This document shows, piece after piece, positions 33,181 to 40,312 of a DNA stretch of 41,121 bases. The stretch is taken from the NCBI GenBank assembly GCA_944326555.1, contig CALVEK010000018.1:1-41121 (forward strand). Direction: 5' to 3'. Origin of the DNA: Candidatus Gastranaerophilales bacterium (GTDB lineage Bacteria; Cyanobacteriota; Vampirovibrionia; Gastranaerophilales; Gastranaerophilaceae). Each line of letters begins with the position of its first letter. The stretch's first letter is position 1. Below the pieces are notes generated by a model. It was not told the origin of the DNA. It made no database searches and saw nothing but the letters and a program-made list of their open reading frames with translations. The translations under genes were made by a program, and so were the position numbers.

Positions 33181-33213
33181 AAAAACCGTTTGTGTAAAAC
33201 AAACGGTTTTTTT
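33181..33213. terminator. Bidirectional terminator between the two response regulators
   Basis: AAAAACCGTTTG pairs with CAAACGGTTTTT, T7 follows, with an A-run before. It serves both convergent genes. Confidence 0.9.
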
Positions 33214-33237: not shown

Positions 33238-33876
33238 TTAGTTCTTTTCGCAATATTCTATAAGTTCGTTTTGCCAATCTTCCACTTTTTCGATATAAAA
33301 ATCTGCACCTTTTTTCATACAAAGTTGGCGATGTTCTCTTTTTGAAGATGCTGTCATAACACCAACAACAGTATTTGCATCATTAATTTTTGAGAGTTTA
33401 ACAAGTTCATCCAACAAAATAAAACCCTCTCTGTCTGTTGGAATAAATAAGTCCATAATTACAAGTTTGTAAGGACGTTTTTTATATTTTGTTATTGCAT
33501 CGTATATTTCTTTTGCGATAGTAACATCATAACCAAGATTACGGAACATAACCCCCAATTGATATGTAATAACCCCGAGGTCATCAACAATTAGGACATT
33601 TTTTGGATTTTCTCCTTCTTCATATTCCATATCGGAACTTGATTGTATATTGTCAGAACTATGATTTCTTGTTTTTGGAGCATTAATTTCTTCAATTGTT
33701 TCTGTTTTGATTCTGTCCATTTTTCTTTTTATGTCCAAAATCAAGTCTTTTAAAAGGTCAACATTTATGCCTTTTGCTCCCGGAGGGATTTTTCCCACCA
33801 AACCATAAAGCTGCTCCAAAAATTCGTCATCAACTTCTATTGTTCGTTTTTTTGATTGTTGTTCTTCTTCGCTCAT
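33238..33876 (-). CDS. Receiver-domain protein with a charged N-terminal extension
   Basis: A 212-aa protein with no output domain. Residues 1-62 are helical and acidic/basic (EFLEQLYGLVGKIPPGAKG, then LLKDLILDIKRKMDR), 63-90 form a Ser/Asp/Glu-rich linker, and 91-212 are a CheY-like receiver with Asp98/99, phosphoacceptor Asp142 in IMDLFIP, the hydroxyl residue in MTASS and a Lys in FYIEKVE. It ends the minus-strand signalling run but has its own extended -10 (TGCTAAAAT) 6 nt before the ATG, and no Shine-Dalgarno sequence. Likely acts by protein contact. Confidence 0.88.
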   Translation of the reverse strand: MSEEEQQSKKRTIEVDDEFLEQLYGLVGKIPPGAKGINVDLLKDLILDIKRKMDRIKTETIEEINAPKTRNHSSDNIQSSSDMEYEEGENPKNVLIVDDLGVITYQLGVMFRNLGYDVTIAKEIYDAITKYKKRPYKLVIMDLFIPTDREGFILLDELVKLSKINDANTVVGVMTASSKREHRQLCMKKGADFYIEKVEDWQNELIEYCEKN

Positions 33877-33882
33877 AATTAA

Positions 33883-33891
33883 ATTTTAGCA
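33883..33891 (-). promoter_or_regulatory. Extended -10 of the receiver-protein gene
   Basis: Minus strand TGCTAAAAT (TGnTAnAAT), 6 nt before the ATG. Transcription would begin about at the start codon. Confidence 0.45.
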
Positions 33892-33924
33892 CAATTTTAT
33901 TATATTGGGTATCATAATAACTTT

Positions 33925-34113
33925 TTAAAAAATTTTCCACCATTTTTTTTCAAAATTTCTTTTTTTTAGATTGGACATACAGTTTTTTAACACTCTAATC
34001 ATTTGAGCATCTGTCAGGTTTAGATGCTTTTGGAGGTCTTTAAAGTATTTTGATGCATATTTTTCGGCATGTATTATATTTTTGTTTGGTATATTTAATA
34101 TATCTTTATACAT
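33925..34113 (-). CDS. Small unknown protein, 62 aa
   Basis: A basic, helical protein (LTDAQMIRVLKNCMSNLKKR) ending FEKKWWKIF, with no signal peptide. AAGGAG lies 5 nt before the ATG, the best ribosome site in this signalling cluster, so it is very likely expressed. It sits between the HD-GYP regulator and the receiver protein. The aromatic-basic tail could contact membrane or a partner. I recognise no family; role in the signalling pathway is only suggested by position. Confidence 0.7.
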   Translation of the reverse strand: MYKDILNIPNKNIIHAEKYASKYFKDLQKHLNLTDAQMIRVLKNCMSNLKKRNFEKKWWKIF

Positions 34114-34228
34114 TGCTTCTCCTTAGTTTTTATAATATACAGAAGCAAAAACAAAAACATTGTCAAAAAGAGCAATTATAATATAAACCGGTTTGTTGCT
34201 ATTATTATATTTGCAAAGTTAATACCGT

Positions 34229-35233
34229 TTATGATTCCGGATTTGTTGTCTCTTTTTCTATTGTTATAACTATGTCATTAAAGCAGTCTTCAAATGCTTT
34301 TACGATGACAGGATCAAACTGTGTACCTGATGATTGTTTGATTTTTTGTAGAGCATCGTTATAGTCAACTTTATTTCTGTAAATCCTATTTGAAATTATA
34401 CTGTCAAATGCATCTGCAACTGCGATGATTCTTGAACCGATAGGAATATCTTCCCCGCTTATGCCATAGGGATATCCTGAACCATCATACTTTTCGTGGT
34501 GGTATTTGATGATTTCTACCACATCTTTTAGTTGTTTTATGTCTTCCAGAATTTTAACGCTATAAGTTATATGTTTTTTTATTTCGTCGTATTCTTCCTG
34601 AGATAAGGAATCAATTTTGTATAAAATATCATCGGAAACCCCTATCATACCGATATCGTGAAGCATTCCTGCAAGCTCGACTTTGCCTACATCAATTGTG
34701 GACATTCCGAGTTTTTTTGCAATAAGTATAGAATAATATGTAATTCTTTTACTTCTTCCCGATGTATATGAATCTTTTGCATCAAGCGCTTCCATGATGG
34801 CTTTTATAGTTCCTGAGAATAACTCTTTTAAATCTTTAATAAGTTTGTCATTGTCGTATTTAAGTTGATAATATTCCAAAGCAGATGAAACTATAAGTTG
34901 TAATTCATCAGGGTTAAAAGGTTTTTTTACATATCTGTATATTTTTGCGTAGTTAATAGCATCAATCAAAATGTTTGCGTCAGAATATGCTGTGAGCAAA
35001 ATTCTCATTACTTGGGGATGGTTAACCTGGACGTGTTTTAGAAATTCAACGCCATCCATCTCCGGCATTTTGTGGTCAGAAATAACAAGTTCGTAATCTT
35101 TTTGTTTCAACATTTCAAGAGCTTGCAACGGAGATGTTGTTTTATCAAGATTATATGAACCTCTCAAGGTTCTGTATAATAACGCAAGGTTATCTTCTTC
35201 ATCGTCTACCAGTAAGATGTTGTATTTATCCAT
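34229..35233 (-). CDS. Response regulator with HD-GYP domain (c-di-GMP phosphodiesterase)
   Basis: A 334-aa RpfG-type protein. The receiver (4-125) has phosphoacceptor Asp53 in ISDHKMPEMDG, LTAYSD and Lys104 in YVKKPF. The HD-GYP domain (about 140-325) has the metal pair HD at 192-193, then HHEKYDG at 245-251 and GYP at 253-255. The canonical HDIGK reads HDIGM here, losing the usual Lys. It would hydrolyse c-di-GMP when phosphorylated; activity is uncertain given that change. Its ATG lies within the kinase 3' end (8-nt overlap), so kinase and regulator are a coupled pair. Confidence 0.92.
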   Translation of the reverse strand: MDKYNILLVDDEEDNLALLYRTLRGSYNLDKTTSPLQALEMLKQKDYELVISDHKMPEMDGVEFLKHVQVNHPQVMRILLTAYSDANILIDAINYAKIYRYVKKPFNPDELQLIVSSALEYYQLKYDNDKLIKDLKELFSGTIKAIMEALDAKDSYTSGRSKRITYYSILIAKKLGMSTIDVGKVELAGMLHDIGMIGVSDDILYKIDSLSQEEYDEIKKHITYSVKILEDIKQLKDVVEIIKYHHEKYDGSGYPYGISGEDIPIGSRIIAVADAFDSIISNRIYRNKVDYNDALQKIKQSSGTQFDPVIVKAFEDCFNDIVITIEKETTNPES

Positions 35234-36824
35234 GATTTGTTTCCATTCTCAACGGGAGTGTAATAGTAAATTTGCTGCCTTTGCCTTTTTCGGAGACAAG
35301 ATCAATATTACCCTTATGATTTTTAATTACTTTGTAACTAATTGCCATACCAAGGCCTGTTCCTTGTCCGACTTCTTTTGTTGTAAAGAACGGGTCAAAA
35401 ACTTTTTTTCGAGTATTTTCATCCATTCCGCATCCATTGTCTTCGAACTCTATTATAGCATTTTTTCCATCAGATTTTAGTCTTATCCAAACATCGCCTT
35501 TTTCTTGGATAGCAAAAGCTGCGTTGTCTAAGATGTTCATAAACACTTGGTTTAGCTGGCCTCCGTATGCTTCAACATGCGGAAGATTTTCTTGATATTC
35601 TTTATGAACGGTAATTTTGTTTTTGAATTTATTATGAAGAATATTCAAAGTTGTGTCTATTTCTTTTGGTAAATCTACGTTATTGATAACAGCTTCTTCC
35701 AGTCGTGAGAAATTTTTGAGGTCTAAGACAATATTTTTTGTTCTTTCTGTACCCTCTTGGCAACTTCGAATTAATTCAGGCAAATCATCTTTTAGGAAAT
35801 CCAAATCGATTTCTTCTTTAAGTTCTTTTATCTTTTGTTTATGTTCTTCTGACAAGTCTTCGTTAAATTCTGTATACAAATCAATAACCGACATCAAATC
35901 AGATGTATAGTTTTTCAGGTGAATTAAGTTGCCGTATATAAAATTGACAGGGTTGTTGATTTCGTGGGTTATTCCTGCAACCAGTTCACCTAAAGATTTC
36001 ATTTTTTCTGAGTGAACCATCATTGCTTGTGTGCTTTTTAGTTCTGAGTAAGCTGCTTCCAATTCTTTTGTTCTGTCTTTTACTTGTTGTTCTAATGATT
36101 GGTATAGTTTTTCCAGTGATTCTGCCATTTCATTGTATGAACGGATTAATCTGTTGATTTCCAGATAATTTGTTTCTTCTAACCTGTGTGAGAAATTACC
36201 TTTTGCAAAATCGCCTAAACTTTTTATAAGGATATTTATAGGTTTAATTAATATTCCCGCTATAAGGTTTGATAAGAAAAAGCCAAGAAATATAAAGATA
36301 AACACCATTGCAAGCATGTTATCTCTAAGCATATCAAGATAAATTTTTGTGATTGGTTCATTATAAAAACCAAGTTCTATTATTTTTCCGTCTTTTGATA
36401 CAGATAGTTTGTATATTGCATCTTCAAGAGACTTTTTCTTTTTTACTGATTTATCGGATATTTTATTTTCTTTGAAAACCTCACTTAATTTTACACTCGG
36501 GTGTGTAGAAAAAAGTGTATTTTGTGTTTTCAAATCTTTTATCATTACAGTTGCAACAATATTGCTATCAACCATCTTTTGAGCGGTTTCTTGCAATTTG
36601 TTGTATTCCTTTTGTTGGAGATGTTCTCCAAGTGTTTGAAATATTGTTATTGATATAGAATCGTTTAGTTCTTTAGATTGGGCTGTAATTTGTTGTGCCA
36701 AATTGTTAACTGTAGCAATTGAGTACCAAGCGATACAAAATACTGTTATTGCTATAAGCATTGTTGTAAATGCCGCAAATTGTGTACTTAATTTTGTTCT
36801 GAATTTTTTTATAGAATTTTGCAT
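35226..36824 (-). CDS. Membrane sensor histidine kinase
   Basis: A 532-aa kinase: membrane helix 17-38, extracytoplasmic sensor about 40-168, second helix 170-194, HAMP about 190-245, coiled coil 245-270, then a HisKA-type H box [16 protein letters not shown] with His287. The ATPase domain has [37 protein letters not shown] and the final [10 protein letters not shown]. The long insert between H box and N box (about 305-365, acidic) belongs to the ATP-binding architecture of this HK subgroup. It overlaps the HD-GYP regulator gene, its obvious partner, and lies 17 nt after the 80-aa membrane protein in the flhA-led run. Confidence 0.92.
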
Positions 36825-36841
36825 ATTACTTTACCCGATTT

Positions 36842-37084
36842 TTATTTCATAAATTTATTGAGTTTTTTCTTCTTTTTTGTTCCGTCAAAAATTTTCCCGA
36901 TATAATATCCCAAAGTCCCCACTATAAAAGCTGCAGGAGTTACGATACAAATGGCATGTATCAGGGTATTCATATCAATGGAAGTTGTTGTTCTAAGAAA
37001 AATTATTGATGAGCAAACAAATATGGTCAGACTTGCTGACATTCCGCAAAATTTTTGTGCATAAGTTATTCCTTTTGCTGCCAT
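36842..37084 (-). CDS. Small membrane protein, 80 aa, unknown
   Basis: Two predicted membrane helices (about 12-31 and 40-64) separated by a short polar turn, with a strongly basic C-terminal tail (DGTKKKKKLNKFMK) expected on the cytoplasmic side. Its ATG directly abuts the TAA of the PilZ gene, so it depends on coupled translation; no separate Shine-Dalgarno sequence is seen. It sits between PilZ and the kinase in the flagellar signalling run. I do not recognise the family. Confidence 0.75.
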   Translation of the reverse strand: MAAKGITYAQKFCGMSASLTIFVCSSIIFLRTTTSIDMNTLIHAICIVTPAAFIVGTLGYYIGKIFDGTKKKKKLNKFMK

Positions 37085-37690
37085 TTATTTGTTTTTGTTC
37101 TCCATTTGTTTTTTAAAACAGAATTGGACGATAGCTATTTTATCAATGTTTTTTAATGCAATAAATCGTCCGGATACAATATTTTTTTTGGTTTTTTCAA
37201 TCTGATCAACTCGGATAGGCTTAAAAAAGCACTGTATAGGAATATTGCTTTCCAAGGAAAATTCAATTACATAATCTTTTTCTACGGAAAGCATTTTATC
37301 CGTGGCAAATTTCATTCCACCTGCGCTGATATCGATTGTTTGACATACACATTCGGAGTTTTCGTCTTTTAGAGTAAATTCTTTTTCAAAATCTATCCTT
37401 GTAAACTCTCTCCTTTGCAGTAAGTCATATTCTTCTTTATTAAATTGGACTTTTATTATATTTTCATTTTCTAAAATTTCAGTAACTTTCGGTTTAAAAT
37501 AAAGCATCCCCTCATCAACAATTGTGAACATTTCAACTGTTTTATTTACGGAATAGTATTTTAAGTCCTCTTTACTTACTGAGACTTCTAATTTATTGCC
37601 TGAAGTTTTTTGAATATTGCTTGATGTTGCACCTTTAATATCTTCCGGAACTACCCATATTTTTTGATTCTTTTTTAGTAACTTTTTCAT
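37085..37690 (-). CDS. PilZ domain c-di-GMP receptor, YcgR-like
   Basis: A 201-aa protein with an N-terminal beta domain (about 10-88) and a PilZ domain. RxxxR is in LQRREFTR (94-98) and the second motif is a canonical DISAGG (120-125), so c-di-GMP binding is expected. It follows flhA by 23 nt, with GGAAG as ribosome site. YcgR-type proteins slow or turn off flagellar rotation at high c-di-GMP (known for enteric bacteria); the operon here suggests the same. Compared with the PilZ product at 14986-15588, this copy retains the consensus Ser. Confidence 0.87.
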   Translation of the reverse strand: MKKLLKKNQKIWVVPEDIKGATSSNIQKTSGNKLEVSVSKEDLKYYSVNKTVEMFTIVDEGMLYFKPKVTEILENENIIKVQFNKEEYDLLQRREFTRIDFEKEFTLKDENSECVCQTIDISAGGMKFATDKMLSVEKDYVIEFSLESNIPIQCFFKPIRVDQIEKTKKNIVSGRFIALKNIDKIAIVQFCFKKQMENKNK

Positions 37691-37713
37691 TATATTTTAC
37701 TTCCGTTTAATTG

Positions 37714-39828
37714 TTATACTCTGTTAGTTACAACTCTTACCACACCTATAGATTTGGCTTTTATGTTGTTGCTGATTTCATTATACGACATAACCGCAAT
37801 TTGTGGATACGTTCTTTCGATGAGTCTTCTAAATGGCAGCCTGATAGGAGATGAGCATAAAAGTACAGGTTGATTACCTGATGTGCTTATGGCTCTTTCT
37901 AATTCGCTGTTAAGATTATCCATAAGTTTTCTTGTAAATTCGGGATCCAAGGTTAGGCTTGTTCCATCAGGGCTAATACCTTGTGCAATGGTGTTTTCAA
38001 CTTCCGGTGCAAGTGTAACGGCAAGCAATTCACCCGTATCGGCAAGATTTTGTTTGCAAATACTCCTTGCAAGTGCTTGTCTTACCTGTTCTGTCAGATA
38101 ATCTGCGTTTTTGCTGACACGTGATTGTAAGCTCAAAACTTCCAGTATTGTCTTGAGGTCTCTTACGGAAACTCGTTCTTTTAGCAAGTTATAAAGTATT
38201 TGCTGCACTTCTGCCACTGTCAAATCTTTCATTAAGTCTGCAACATATTCTTCTGAGACTTCTTTTTTGAGATTATCTATTAATTGTTGAATATCTGCTC
38301 GAGAGACTATTTCTGCAGCATTTTTCTTTATCACTTCTGTAAGGTGAGTAGAGATTACGGCAGATGGGCTAACTACAGTATAACCATACGTTTCTGCTAC
38401 TTCTTTGTCTTTTTCTTCAACCCAGATTGCGGGCAAGCCGAAAGCAGGCTCAATAGCACTAATTCCGTTGATACTCAGGTCATTTTCAGAGCCGCCCGAG
38501 TTCATTGCAAGACTTCTATCCGGATAAACTTCACCTGATTCTATAGGTACACCTTTGAGTTTAATTTGGTAGCTGTTTGGTGGAAGCTGCAAATTATCAC
38601 GTACTCTGATTGATGGCAGAACTATACCCAAATCCAAAGCTGTTTGCCTTCTTATCTGTGCGATACGTTCAAGCAGGTCTCCGCCTTGTTCTACATCAAG
38701 TAATGGAACTAATCTGTATCCGATTTCCATTTCTATTGTTTCTACATTTAAAAGCTCCATTACACTTTCTCTTGTAGCTTTTTTCTTTTTCTTTGCAACT
38801 TTGCCAAGCCCGCCGTCTTGTTTTTTTGCTTCTTCTGCAGCTTTGACTTCTTCTGCTTTTTTAGCTTTTTCTGCTTTGTTTTTACTGAAAGCAAGCCAAC
38901 CGAGTGCTAAAGATACCATTATAAATGGAATTGTCGGCATCCCTGGGACCATGCCAAGCAAGAACAGTAATACTGATACAATTGCAAGTACAATAGGGTT
39001 TGAGAACATTTCTTTTTTGATGTCATCACTTAATGATTCATCTTGTCCGCTTGCACGAGATACAATTAAACCTGTTGAGAAAGAGATTAAAAGTGCAGGC
39101 AATTGTGATACAAGTCCATCACCAACTGTTAGGATGGTGAATGTCGAAAGTGCGGTCATGATATCCATTTTTAGTTGCCAAAGACCTATTACAATCCCCG
39201 CAAAAATGTTTACGACTGTGATAATAATACCGGCAGTGGCATCACCTTTAACAAACTTAGAAGCACCGTCCATGGTACCGTAAAAATCAGCCTCTCTTTC
39301 AAGTTTTCTTCTTCTTGCTTTTGCTTGTTCCTCGTTGATTAATCCCGAGTTGAGATCTGCATCTATAGATAATTGCTTACCCGGCATACTGTCCAATGTA
39401 AATCTTGCAGATACTTCGGCAACTCTGGTTGCACCGCCTGTAATTACCATAAAGTTGATAACAACAAGCAAGATAAAGATAATGAAACCGACAATGTAGT
39501 TACCTCCTACTACAAATTGTCCAAAAGAGTTGATAACCTCACCGGCAGCACCGTTTAGTAAGATGAGTCTTGTTGAACTTACATTAAGACCCAAACGAAA
39601 AATTGTCGCCACAAGAAGTATAATAGGGAAAGAGCTATACTCCAAAGGCTCTTTTATAAACAAACAAACCAAAAGTATTATTACGGAAAGAGATATATTA
39701 AGAGTTAGCAAAATATCAAGCAGCATTGGGGGTAAGGGTATAATCATCATAGCAACAATTATGACAATACCGATTGCCATGATTATGTCGTTATTTTTTA
39801 GTAAGCTGCTTAACGCACCAAAGTTCAT
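37714..39828 (-). CDS. flhA: Flagellar biosynthesis protein FlhA
   Basis: The nonameric export-gate protein of the flagellar type III secretion system, in the inner membrane. The 704-aa product has eight membrane helices in the first 320 residues. It includes the FHIPEP signature region (SSFPIILLVATIFRLGLNVS, ARFTLDSMPGKQLSIDADL and EREADFYGTMDGASKFVKGD), a Lys/Ala-rich linker about 320-350 and the cytoplasmic C-domain to the end. No frameshift. The upstream region lacks a clear Shine-Dalgarno sequence. It heads the run flhA, PilZ, 80-aa protein, kinase, HD-GYP regulator. Other flagellar genes are outside the window. Confidence 0.96.
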   Translation of the reverse strand: MNFGALSSLLKNNDIIMAIGIVIIVAMMIIPLPPMLLDILLTLNISLSVIILLVCLFIKEPLEYSSFPIILLVATIFRLGLNVSSTRLILLNGAAGEVINSFGQFVVGGNYIVGFIIFILLVVINFMVITGGATRVAEVSARFTLDSMPGKQLSIDADLNSGLINEEQAKARRRKLEREADFYGTMDGASKFVKGDATAGIIITVVNIFAGIVIGLWQLKMDIMTALSTFTILTVGDGLVSQLPALLISFSTGLIVSRASGQDESLSDDIKKEMFSNPIVLAIVSVLLFLLGMVPGMPTIPFIMVSLALGWLAFSKNKAEKAKKAEEVKAAEEAKKQDGGLGKVAKKKKKATRESVMELLNVETIEMEIGYRLVPLLDVEQGGDLLERIAQIRRQTALDLGIVLPSIRVRDNLQLPPNSYQIKLKGVPIESGEVYPDRSLAMNSGGSENDLSINGISAIEPAFGLPAIWVEEKDKEVAETYGYTVVSPSAVISTHLTEVIKKNAAEIVSRADIQQLIDNLKKEVSEEYVADLMKDLTVAEVQQILYNLLKERVSVRDLKTILEVLSLQSRVSKNADYLTEQVRQALARSICKQNLADTGELLAVTLAPEVENTIAQGISPDGTSLTLDPEFTRKLMDNLNSELERAISTSGNQPVLLCSSPIRLPFRRLIERTYPQIAVMSYNEISNNIKAKSIGVVRVVTNRV

Positions 39829-39960
39829 GATTTTTTATTTTTTATACTCTTTCCCAATTAAAATAATAGCTTATATACTTTTATTTATCGAATTCTTTAC
39901 CAAACTTAAATTTTCTGACTTAAATAGCAAAAAAATGAATTTGCACGTTTTATAATAAAA

Positions 39961-39989: not shown

Positions 39990-40006
39990 GTGTGAAAGGA
40001 ATGTAT

Positions 40007-40312
40007 ATGCCTGTTTATGCAAGTTTATTGTCTAATGTGCCTGTTCCTGAACAAAATTGGCAAACAAAACCAAACACTCCTGCTATTGCGAGTGTAAAAG
40101 TAGGTGAAGTTTGTGATTCGGGATATTCTCAGCCGAATGTTGTTCAAAATGATTCATCAAAAACATTTTTGGGCAAATGGGTTAACAATCTGAGACAAAA
40201 ACTTGTGCAAAAAAGAATGCAAAAGCTGGAAAGTATACCTGAGGATAAAAGAACTCCTGCTCAACAGGCAGAATATGAGGCTAACCAAAAATCGCTGAAT
40301 TGTGTGGTATAA
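40007..40312 (+). CDS. Small unknown protein, 101 aa
   Basis: No family recognised. The N-terminal 55 residues are Pro/Asn/Val-rich and low in predicted structure (NVPVPEQNWQTKPNTPAIA). A basic helix follows (FLGKWVNNLRQKLVQKRMQ), then KTPAQQ-like polar sequence (EDKRTPAQQAEYEANQ) ending in NCVV. In-frame GTG and ATG codons lie upstream, but AAAGGA is 6 nt before this ATG. Divergent from flhA and 29 nt before the hydrolase start, so likely co-transcribed with it. The Cys four residues from the end is the only one besides Cys in GEVCDSG. Confidence 0.75.
   Translation: MPVYASLLSNVPVPEQNWQTKPNTPAIASVKVGEVCDSGYSQPNVVQNDSSKTFLGKWVNNLRQKLVQKRMQKLESIPEDKRTPAQQAEYEANQKSLNCVV

Follow-up and report, generated by a model that had tools for sequence, protein, structure and literature searches.

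Parts of several described systems resemble the locus reported here. MotI/DgrA (YpfA) of Bacillus subtilis and YcgR of Escherichia coli are two-domain PilZ proteins of about 200 amino acids (aa) with motifs for cyclic diguanylate (c-di-GMP), and they act on flagellar motors. Phosphodiesterases of the RpfG/TM0186 type combine a receiver (REC) domain with an HD-GYP domain. In Bacillus the gene order is fliM-fliY-cheY, and the gene for the export-gate factor FliO is located before fliP. The window analyzed here, 41,121 nucleotides that make up contig C18 of a 2.08-Mb Candidatus Gastranaerophilales genome (G000), contains a run of seven genes led by flhA. A literature search found no paper containing both 'Gastranaerophilales' and 'c-di-GMP'. 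We consider it rather probable that three functions share this stretch, namely a pair formed by flhA and the gene of an 80-aa membrane protein, a c-di-GMP-linked signalling module, and a flagellar-switch unit made of a receiver and a 62-aa protein. The biochemical steps and targets proposed below we infer from gene content, order, distribution, motifs and substitutions, which were observed directly.

The seven genes had already been listed in the first-pass annotation of the window, and this description held, with all the open reading frames found on the minus strand and the domains confirmed by Pfam:

37714-39828, minus strand: flhA, flagellar export gate (704 aa; Pfam FHIPEP, 5.9e-261)
37085-37690, minus strand: pilZ, two-domain PilZ protein, MotI/YpfA- and YcgR-like (201 aa; Pfam PilZ, 5.2e-11)
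36842-37084, minus strand: 80-aa protein of a family that tracks the flagellum (no Pfam match over the cut-off)
35226-36824, minus strand: membrane sensor histidine kinase (532 aa; Pfam HAMP, HisKA and HATPase_c)
34229-35233, minus strand: REC and HD-GYP response regulator with a substituted active site (334 aa; Response_reg, and HD_5 at 8.4e-42)
33925-34113, minus strand: 62-aa basic protein with an invariant KKWW near the C terminus, seen in the alignment (no Pfam match)
33238-33876, minus strand: CheY-like receiver with an N-terminal extension (212 aa; Response_reg, 3.4e-13)

The distribution of these genes was followed in an evenly drawn, class-wide sample of 147 genomes at least 85% complete, of which 74 form the family f1, called the family below. 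A genome was called flagellated when it contains a FliG C-terminal domain, flagellin and a window-type FlhA, a definition that is based on genes and not on observed motility. This applies to 11 of the 74 family genomes (G000, G127, G132, G133, G139, G135, G137, G138, G142, G144 and G145). G146 has one flagellin match and was counted as non-flagellated given that it is without FliG_C and without window-type FlhA. Presence and absence counts within the family come from related genomes and are not independent events. PilZ matches, near full length, are found in all 74 family genomes and thus in all 63 that do not have the FliG C-terminal domain, with identities of 28-37% outside the genus. The 80-aa family and the receiver are each found in 11/11 flagellated and in 0/63 other family genomes, the receiver count leaving out a 29% match in G146 to a 311-aa frame, which covers the receiver domain only.

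The window PilZ protein has the N-terminal beta domain and the PilZ domain of the MotI/YcgR brakes. Its motifs QRREFTR (QRRxxxR) and DISAGG agree with the c-di-GMP-binding patterns RxxxR and [DN]xSxxG, and both are invariant in the 14 sequences compared, from flagellated and non-flagellated genomes alike; among 20 genus relatives, four (L006, L014, L018 and L033) have a Cys in place of the motif Ser. By sequence, its nearest solved relatives are YpfA (MotI), at 4.1e-9, and, at 7.9e-4, a chain that carries the label flagellar brake YcgR. A fold search with the predicted model (predicted local distance difference test, pLDDT, 86) ranked MotI first and also indicated YcgR/MrkH-type proteins, a match that counts per domain, because the two domains are placed differently and the whole-chain template modelling scores (TM-scores) are below 0.5. 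Unlike MotI and YcgR, the window protein is encoded after flhA. Also unlike these brakes, which occur together with a flagellar motor, it persists in the 63 family genomes that have no motor gene and in which a motor brake would find nothing to act on.

The surroundings of pilZ were read in 20 of the 74 family genomes, comprising six flagellated ones, G140, G146 and 12 other non-flagellated ones. In the six flagellated genomes the order is fliP-fliQ-fliR-flhB-flhA-pilZ, followed by an 80-aa family member; for G142 and G144 the full order is accD-accA-fliP-fliQ-fliR-flhB-flhA-pilZ-(80-aa family)-kinase-HD-GYP. The non-flagellated G140 and G146 have accD-accA-pilZ-kinase-HD-GYP, having lost the small gene behind pilZ as well as all five export genes ahead of it. 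The gene-order comparison that the first-pass annotation had proposed therefore went against its own reading once non-flagellated relatives were included, since the pilZ-kinase-HD-GYP order survives in two of them. In the signalling-gene tree G140 groups with the flagellated G144 (support 99) and G146 falls outside, and for none of six flanking proteins (the 156-, 126-, 375- and 154-aa ones, AccA and AccD) are G140 and G146 the closest pair. Judging by the signalling-gene tree and the flanking proteins, two flagellar losses are likelier than one, and the signalling genes were probably retained each time. The signalling copies of G140, G146 and the flagellated genomes are open frames with nonsynonymous divergence (dN) far below synonymous divergence (dS); as dS is saturated, the low dN shows only that the frames are constrained. 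It is routine to annotate the neighbours of flagellar genes as regulators of the flagellum. Here a deletion made by the lineage itself sets the flagellum-dependent parts, which are the 80-aa protein and the receiver, apart from PilZ and, in two genomes, from the kinase and HD-GYP protein.

In all 12 of the other non-flagellated genomes pilZ is followed by a gene for a pyridoxal phosphate enzyme, similar to ornithine/lysine/arginine decarboxylases, and in 7/12 it lies behind a secY block. One gene past the pilZ-decarboxylase pair, 8 of the 12 encode a protein of 658-747 aa that begins near 'MGMAAxQARLLSITSR' (L046:4883-6994 and seven more pilZ neighbourhoods). A Pfam scan of the L046 protein and a solved-structure search with one of these 'QARLL' proteins gave no match. 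A start of the same type is found in a 426-aa protein at L060:11021-12301.

Linkage was read in 30 named loci that were retrieved through FlhA similarity and are consequently evidence for linkage among relatives only; one of them, L029, is apparently the same genome as G138 (zero distance in the signalling-gene tree). The flhA-pilZ order and the kinase are both kept in 30/30 loci, which confirms the conserved linkage with flhA that the first-pass annotation had supposed and, for flhA-pilZ, indicates that it is not due to chance. The HD-GYP gene is found in 29 (in the exception, L030, the contig ends within the kinase), the 80-aa gene was detected by tblastn in 28, and the 62-aa gene and the receiver are present in 23. 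Of the seven loci without this last pair, the contig ends in L020, L028 and L030, and there is room available for it in L024, L025, L029 and L032.

The kinase and HD-GYP genes overlap by 8 nucleotides. Orthologues of the HD-GYP protein (at least 60% identity) occur in 8/11 flagellated and in 2/63 other family genomes, and the sensor part of the kinase finds the same ten genomes; the pair is missing from the flagellated G135, G137 and G145. Like RpfG/TM0186-type phosphodiesterases and PmGH, the window protein keeps the HHE and GYP motifs, as well as HD, in an alignment with PmGH and V-cGAP3, and it joins REC to HD-GYP next to an overlapping partner kinase gene. Unlike PmGH, the window-type orthologues have Arg at the position of H189 and Met at that of K225 in 35/35 sequences (a pattern match gave Met in all 35 and Arg in 30, and in the other five the Arg was read by eye), so the window protein does not have the full set of residues needed for PmGH activity. 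A paralogue from the same genome, 46% identical, retains both standard residues. In PmGH, the replacements H189A and K225A essentially abolish activity (PMC4159591), and a study on Vibrio cholerae (PMC4212101) describes HD-GYP proteins with missing residues of which some are inactive and some active. Hydrolysis of c-di-GMP by the window protein is, from its sequence, doubtful. The kinase would sense a cue and phosphorylate the REC domain of its overlapping partner, as the gene overlap and the intact residues suggest. With two catalytic positions altered, a standard phosphodiesterase role is less likely for the partner than signalling through a bound nucleotide or protein, or weak hydrolysis. 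A conserved HD-GYP protein of this kind would be a useful test of HD-GYP function without c-di-GMP cleavage. Neither the window nor the other examined stretches of this genome, the whole of which was not searched, showed a diguanylate cyclase motif.

The first-pass annotation had read the run as a complete circuit that senses, degrades and responds, next to a single flagellar gene. As a circuit reserved for the flagellum, it would have the kinase control an HD-GYP phosphodiesterase, with a MotI/YcgR-like PilZ brake on the flagellum responding to the effect. The invariable flhA-pilZ order, the closeness of PilZ to MotI and YcgR, and the presence of the kinase and HD-GYP protein in 8/11 flagellated family genomes are what such a circuit would give. 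Against it stand the presence of PilZ in all 63 family genomes that have no motor gene, the three flagellated genomes without the kinase/HD-GYP pair, the two non-flagellated ones that keep it, and the altered HD-GYP active site in all 35 orthologues. We regard this circuit as unlikely, and the claim of the annotation was not upheld.

The genome carries three FHIPEP genes, so a non-flagellar role of the one in the window was considered. The window FlhA passes the NCBI FlhA equivalog cut-off (847.7 bits against 772.1) and stays below that of SctV (639.6 against 692.25), its orthologues (71-100% identity) are confined to the 11 flagellated genomes within the family, and G000 has 8 flagellin, 7 Flg_bbr_C and 1 FliG_C matches. 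The alternative that the window FHIPEP gene encodes a non-flagellar gate was rejected, given the cut-off passed and family orthologues that occur only alongside flagellin and FliG. A second export apparatus is located on contig C23 (L002/L034), with FliF-, FliH-, FlhA- and FliI-like genes and its FHIPEP gene at C23:14192-16228; the protein in the FliG position gives no FliG match. Its FHIPEP, FliI-like and FliF-like proteins fall under the equivalog cut-offs of flagellar and injectisome models alike. The second FHIPEP protein is 37-41% identical to the window FlhA, is present in 73/74 family genomes, G081 being the exception, and occurs alongside the flagellar gate in 11/11 flagellated ones. 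In the literature search, no listed paper names a second export gate in this class. Soo et al. (PMC4040986) describe full flagellar gene sets in 3/9 Gastranaerophilales genomes and 'only a subset' in the others; the genomes read here suggest that some of this subset may belong to the second export apparatus rather than to a remnant. Near this apparatus, at L034:7260-8513, there is an HD-domain protein with an altered HD motif (LQNIGK versus LHDIGK). A stand-alone protein of 487 aa at L003:1051-2514 (contig C5:46036-47019) consists of the cytoplasmic C-terminal part of FHIPEP only, and similar proteins are found in other family genomes.

That PilZ serves this second, flagellum-derived apparatus would account for their equal breadth (73/74 and 74/74 family genomes), and it is possible that the 'QARLL' proteins encoded near pilZ in 8/12 non-flagellated genomes are its substrates. 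A shared profile of two universal genes arises by default, however, and pilZ is not adjacent to the apparatus in the stretches read. The apparatus also extends to families that gave no PilZ match. We place this explanation behind the dedicated circuit, as improbable.

Several observations weigh against the three-function reading. RpfG is an active enzyme with Phe at the H189 position, so the Arg alone is no proof that the window HD-GYP protein is inactive; RpfG thus also does without H189, and a natural change of K225 is not mentioned in the available part of the same source (PMC4159591). Within the genus the kinase/HD-GYP pair is linked very tightly to flhA-pilZ, and only 2/63 non-flagellated family genomes keep the pair, so that its role could still be flagellar in most carriers. 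The receiver lies beside unrelated genes in G135, G137, G138 and G145. Finally, a CheA-like gene is kept in G140 and in G146 (under the family cut-off in the latter) and one flagellin in G146, so these genomes may have lost the flagellum recently and may have retained the signalling genes partly through inertia. Such leftovers are what would be expected if pilZ, the kinase and the HD-GYP gene were a not-yet-decayed vestige of that loss, but genes on both flanks of pilZ were lost while pilZ stayed, in G140 and G146 alike, its c-di-GMP motifs are invariant in all 14 sequences compared, and PilZ is present in the 61 other non-flagellated family genomes, with a different neighbourhood in 12/12 of those examined, which makes a vestige the least likely explanation of all.

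Under the three-function reading, pilZ, which in some genera is joined by the genes for the kinase and the HD-GYP protein, would ride in the export-gate operon and work for a function that outlasts the flagellum. With its motifs intact, PilZ would bind c-di-GMP and, being built like MotI and YcgR, act on a membrane machine; in flagellated members the target may include the motor.

The 80-aa protein has two predicted membrane helices, the second of which is glycine-rich, and a basic tail. The profile of its family finds members directly after flhA in families f3 and f9 (genes read in L064-L070), and the comparison of the f1 profile with that of the f3/f9 set gives a probability of 98.5%. A tail motif like TGEExFLDD is common to most members outside f1. 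No copy after flhA was seen in the f8 and f4 genomes read, and weak hits in G023, G032, G048, G090 and G094, which are away from flhA or broken, were treated as chance (in G032 the gene after flhA was read). In Pfam and NCBIfam scans of the family, no known family reached the cut-off. FliO or another named family was rejected as its identity, with no FliO match among 12 members compared with Pfam. Like FliO and other small export-gate factors, it is a small membrane protein with a genetic link to the gate; unlike FliO, it has two helices, is encoded after flhA, and has no FliO or other Pfam match over the cut-off. We tentatively propose that this is an undescribed two-helix membrane family that serves the flagellar export gate in Vampirovibrionia, with its gene directly behind flhA or flhA-pilZ in three or more families, and that it goes when the flagellum is lost. 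In the three-function reading its probable place of action is the export gate, where it would be a factor for membrane assembly or stability. The earlier idea that the small proteins of the run could be new regulators stood in part, the distribution supporting the 80-aa protein as a new flagellar factor. The signalling and flagellar parts of the run are a new variant of known ones, and the 80-aa protein stands out among them as a good candidate for a small flagellar protein that would be new. The outcome is a short list of testable flagellar candidates, obtained without experiment.

The receiver, described in the first-pass annotation as output-less, is not a bare domain: about 90 conserved residues extend it at the N terminus, with a genus stretch like RTIEVDxEFLExLYGLVGKIPPG, and in this it differs from CheY, a single domain of about 120 residues. 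The fold prediction for this N-terminal part has low confidence, and no cut-off was passed against the CheY model. Its phospho-acceptor set (D98, D99, D142, T175 and K197) is invariant. Like CheY, the receiver keeps these residues, tracks the flagellum and, in two genera, follows the switch genes, its orthologue being placed directly after fliM-fliN (Pfam-confirmed) in G142 and G144; unlike CheY, it has the extension, and its gene neighbours differ elsewhere. CheA is present in 11/11 flagellated family genomes. In the G000 cluster CheA is accompanied by a membrane protein resembling a receptor and by a protein of the CheW type; the stretch showed no stand-alone CheY. The 62-aa protein gives a strong match in 5/5 genus genomes, 3.5e-9 in G142, and weak matches elsewhere. 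Gene order and distribution suggest that the receiver and the 62-aa gene would form a separate flagellar-switch unit, in which the receiver would be phosphorylated by CheA and act at FliM/FliN. G140 (L083) and G146 (L085) keep the CheA-like kinase, a membrane partner and a CheW-type neighbour without FliG, and their chemosensory system may serve another output.

The intergenic parts of the stretch contain three further features:

39849-39910, minus strand: conserved element upstream of flhA, putative promoter/operator, with TTTAAGTTTGGTAAAGAATTCGATAAAT, then TATAAGCTATTA and TTGGGAAAGAG
34131-34166, minus strand: conserved element upstream of the 62-aa gene, putative promoter, with TTGAYAATGTTTTT ... 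TATATTATA
33181-33211, no strand assigned: terminator-like stem of 13 pairs, in the gap that separates the receiver gene from the convergent gene of a LuxR-type regulator

The flhA element is found upstream of flhA in the window and in 23/30 named loci, and nowhere else in the loci scanned. It resembles the FliA-type promoter consensus with a spacer two bases short, and identity is not claimed. The element upstream of the 62-aa gene is present, by exact or near match, in the window and in all but one of the 23 loci that have the gene (22), the exception being L015, whose diverged copy is seen in the alignment; given that its 14-base core has 100 matches at two substitutions, mostly by chance, only aligned copies were counted. 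In L007 the 62-aa/receiver pair is found at another place in the locus and in opposite orientation, and this upstream element has moved along with it. A hairpin between the HD-GYP and 62-aa genes, considered as a terminator, is no better than shuffled sequences (z -0.96). The separate conserved upstream elements and the separability seen in L007 argue for at least two putative transcription units where a single run had been assumed, and the seven-gene stretch is likely to be two such units. Divergent from flhA, at 39992-40312 on the plus strand of the window, a conserved 106-aa protein of no known family is encoded, with 30-50% identity in many related loci.

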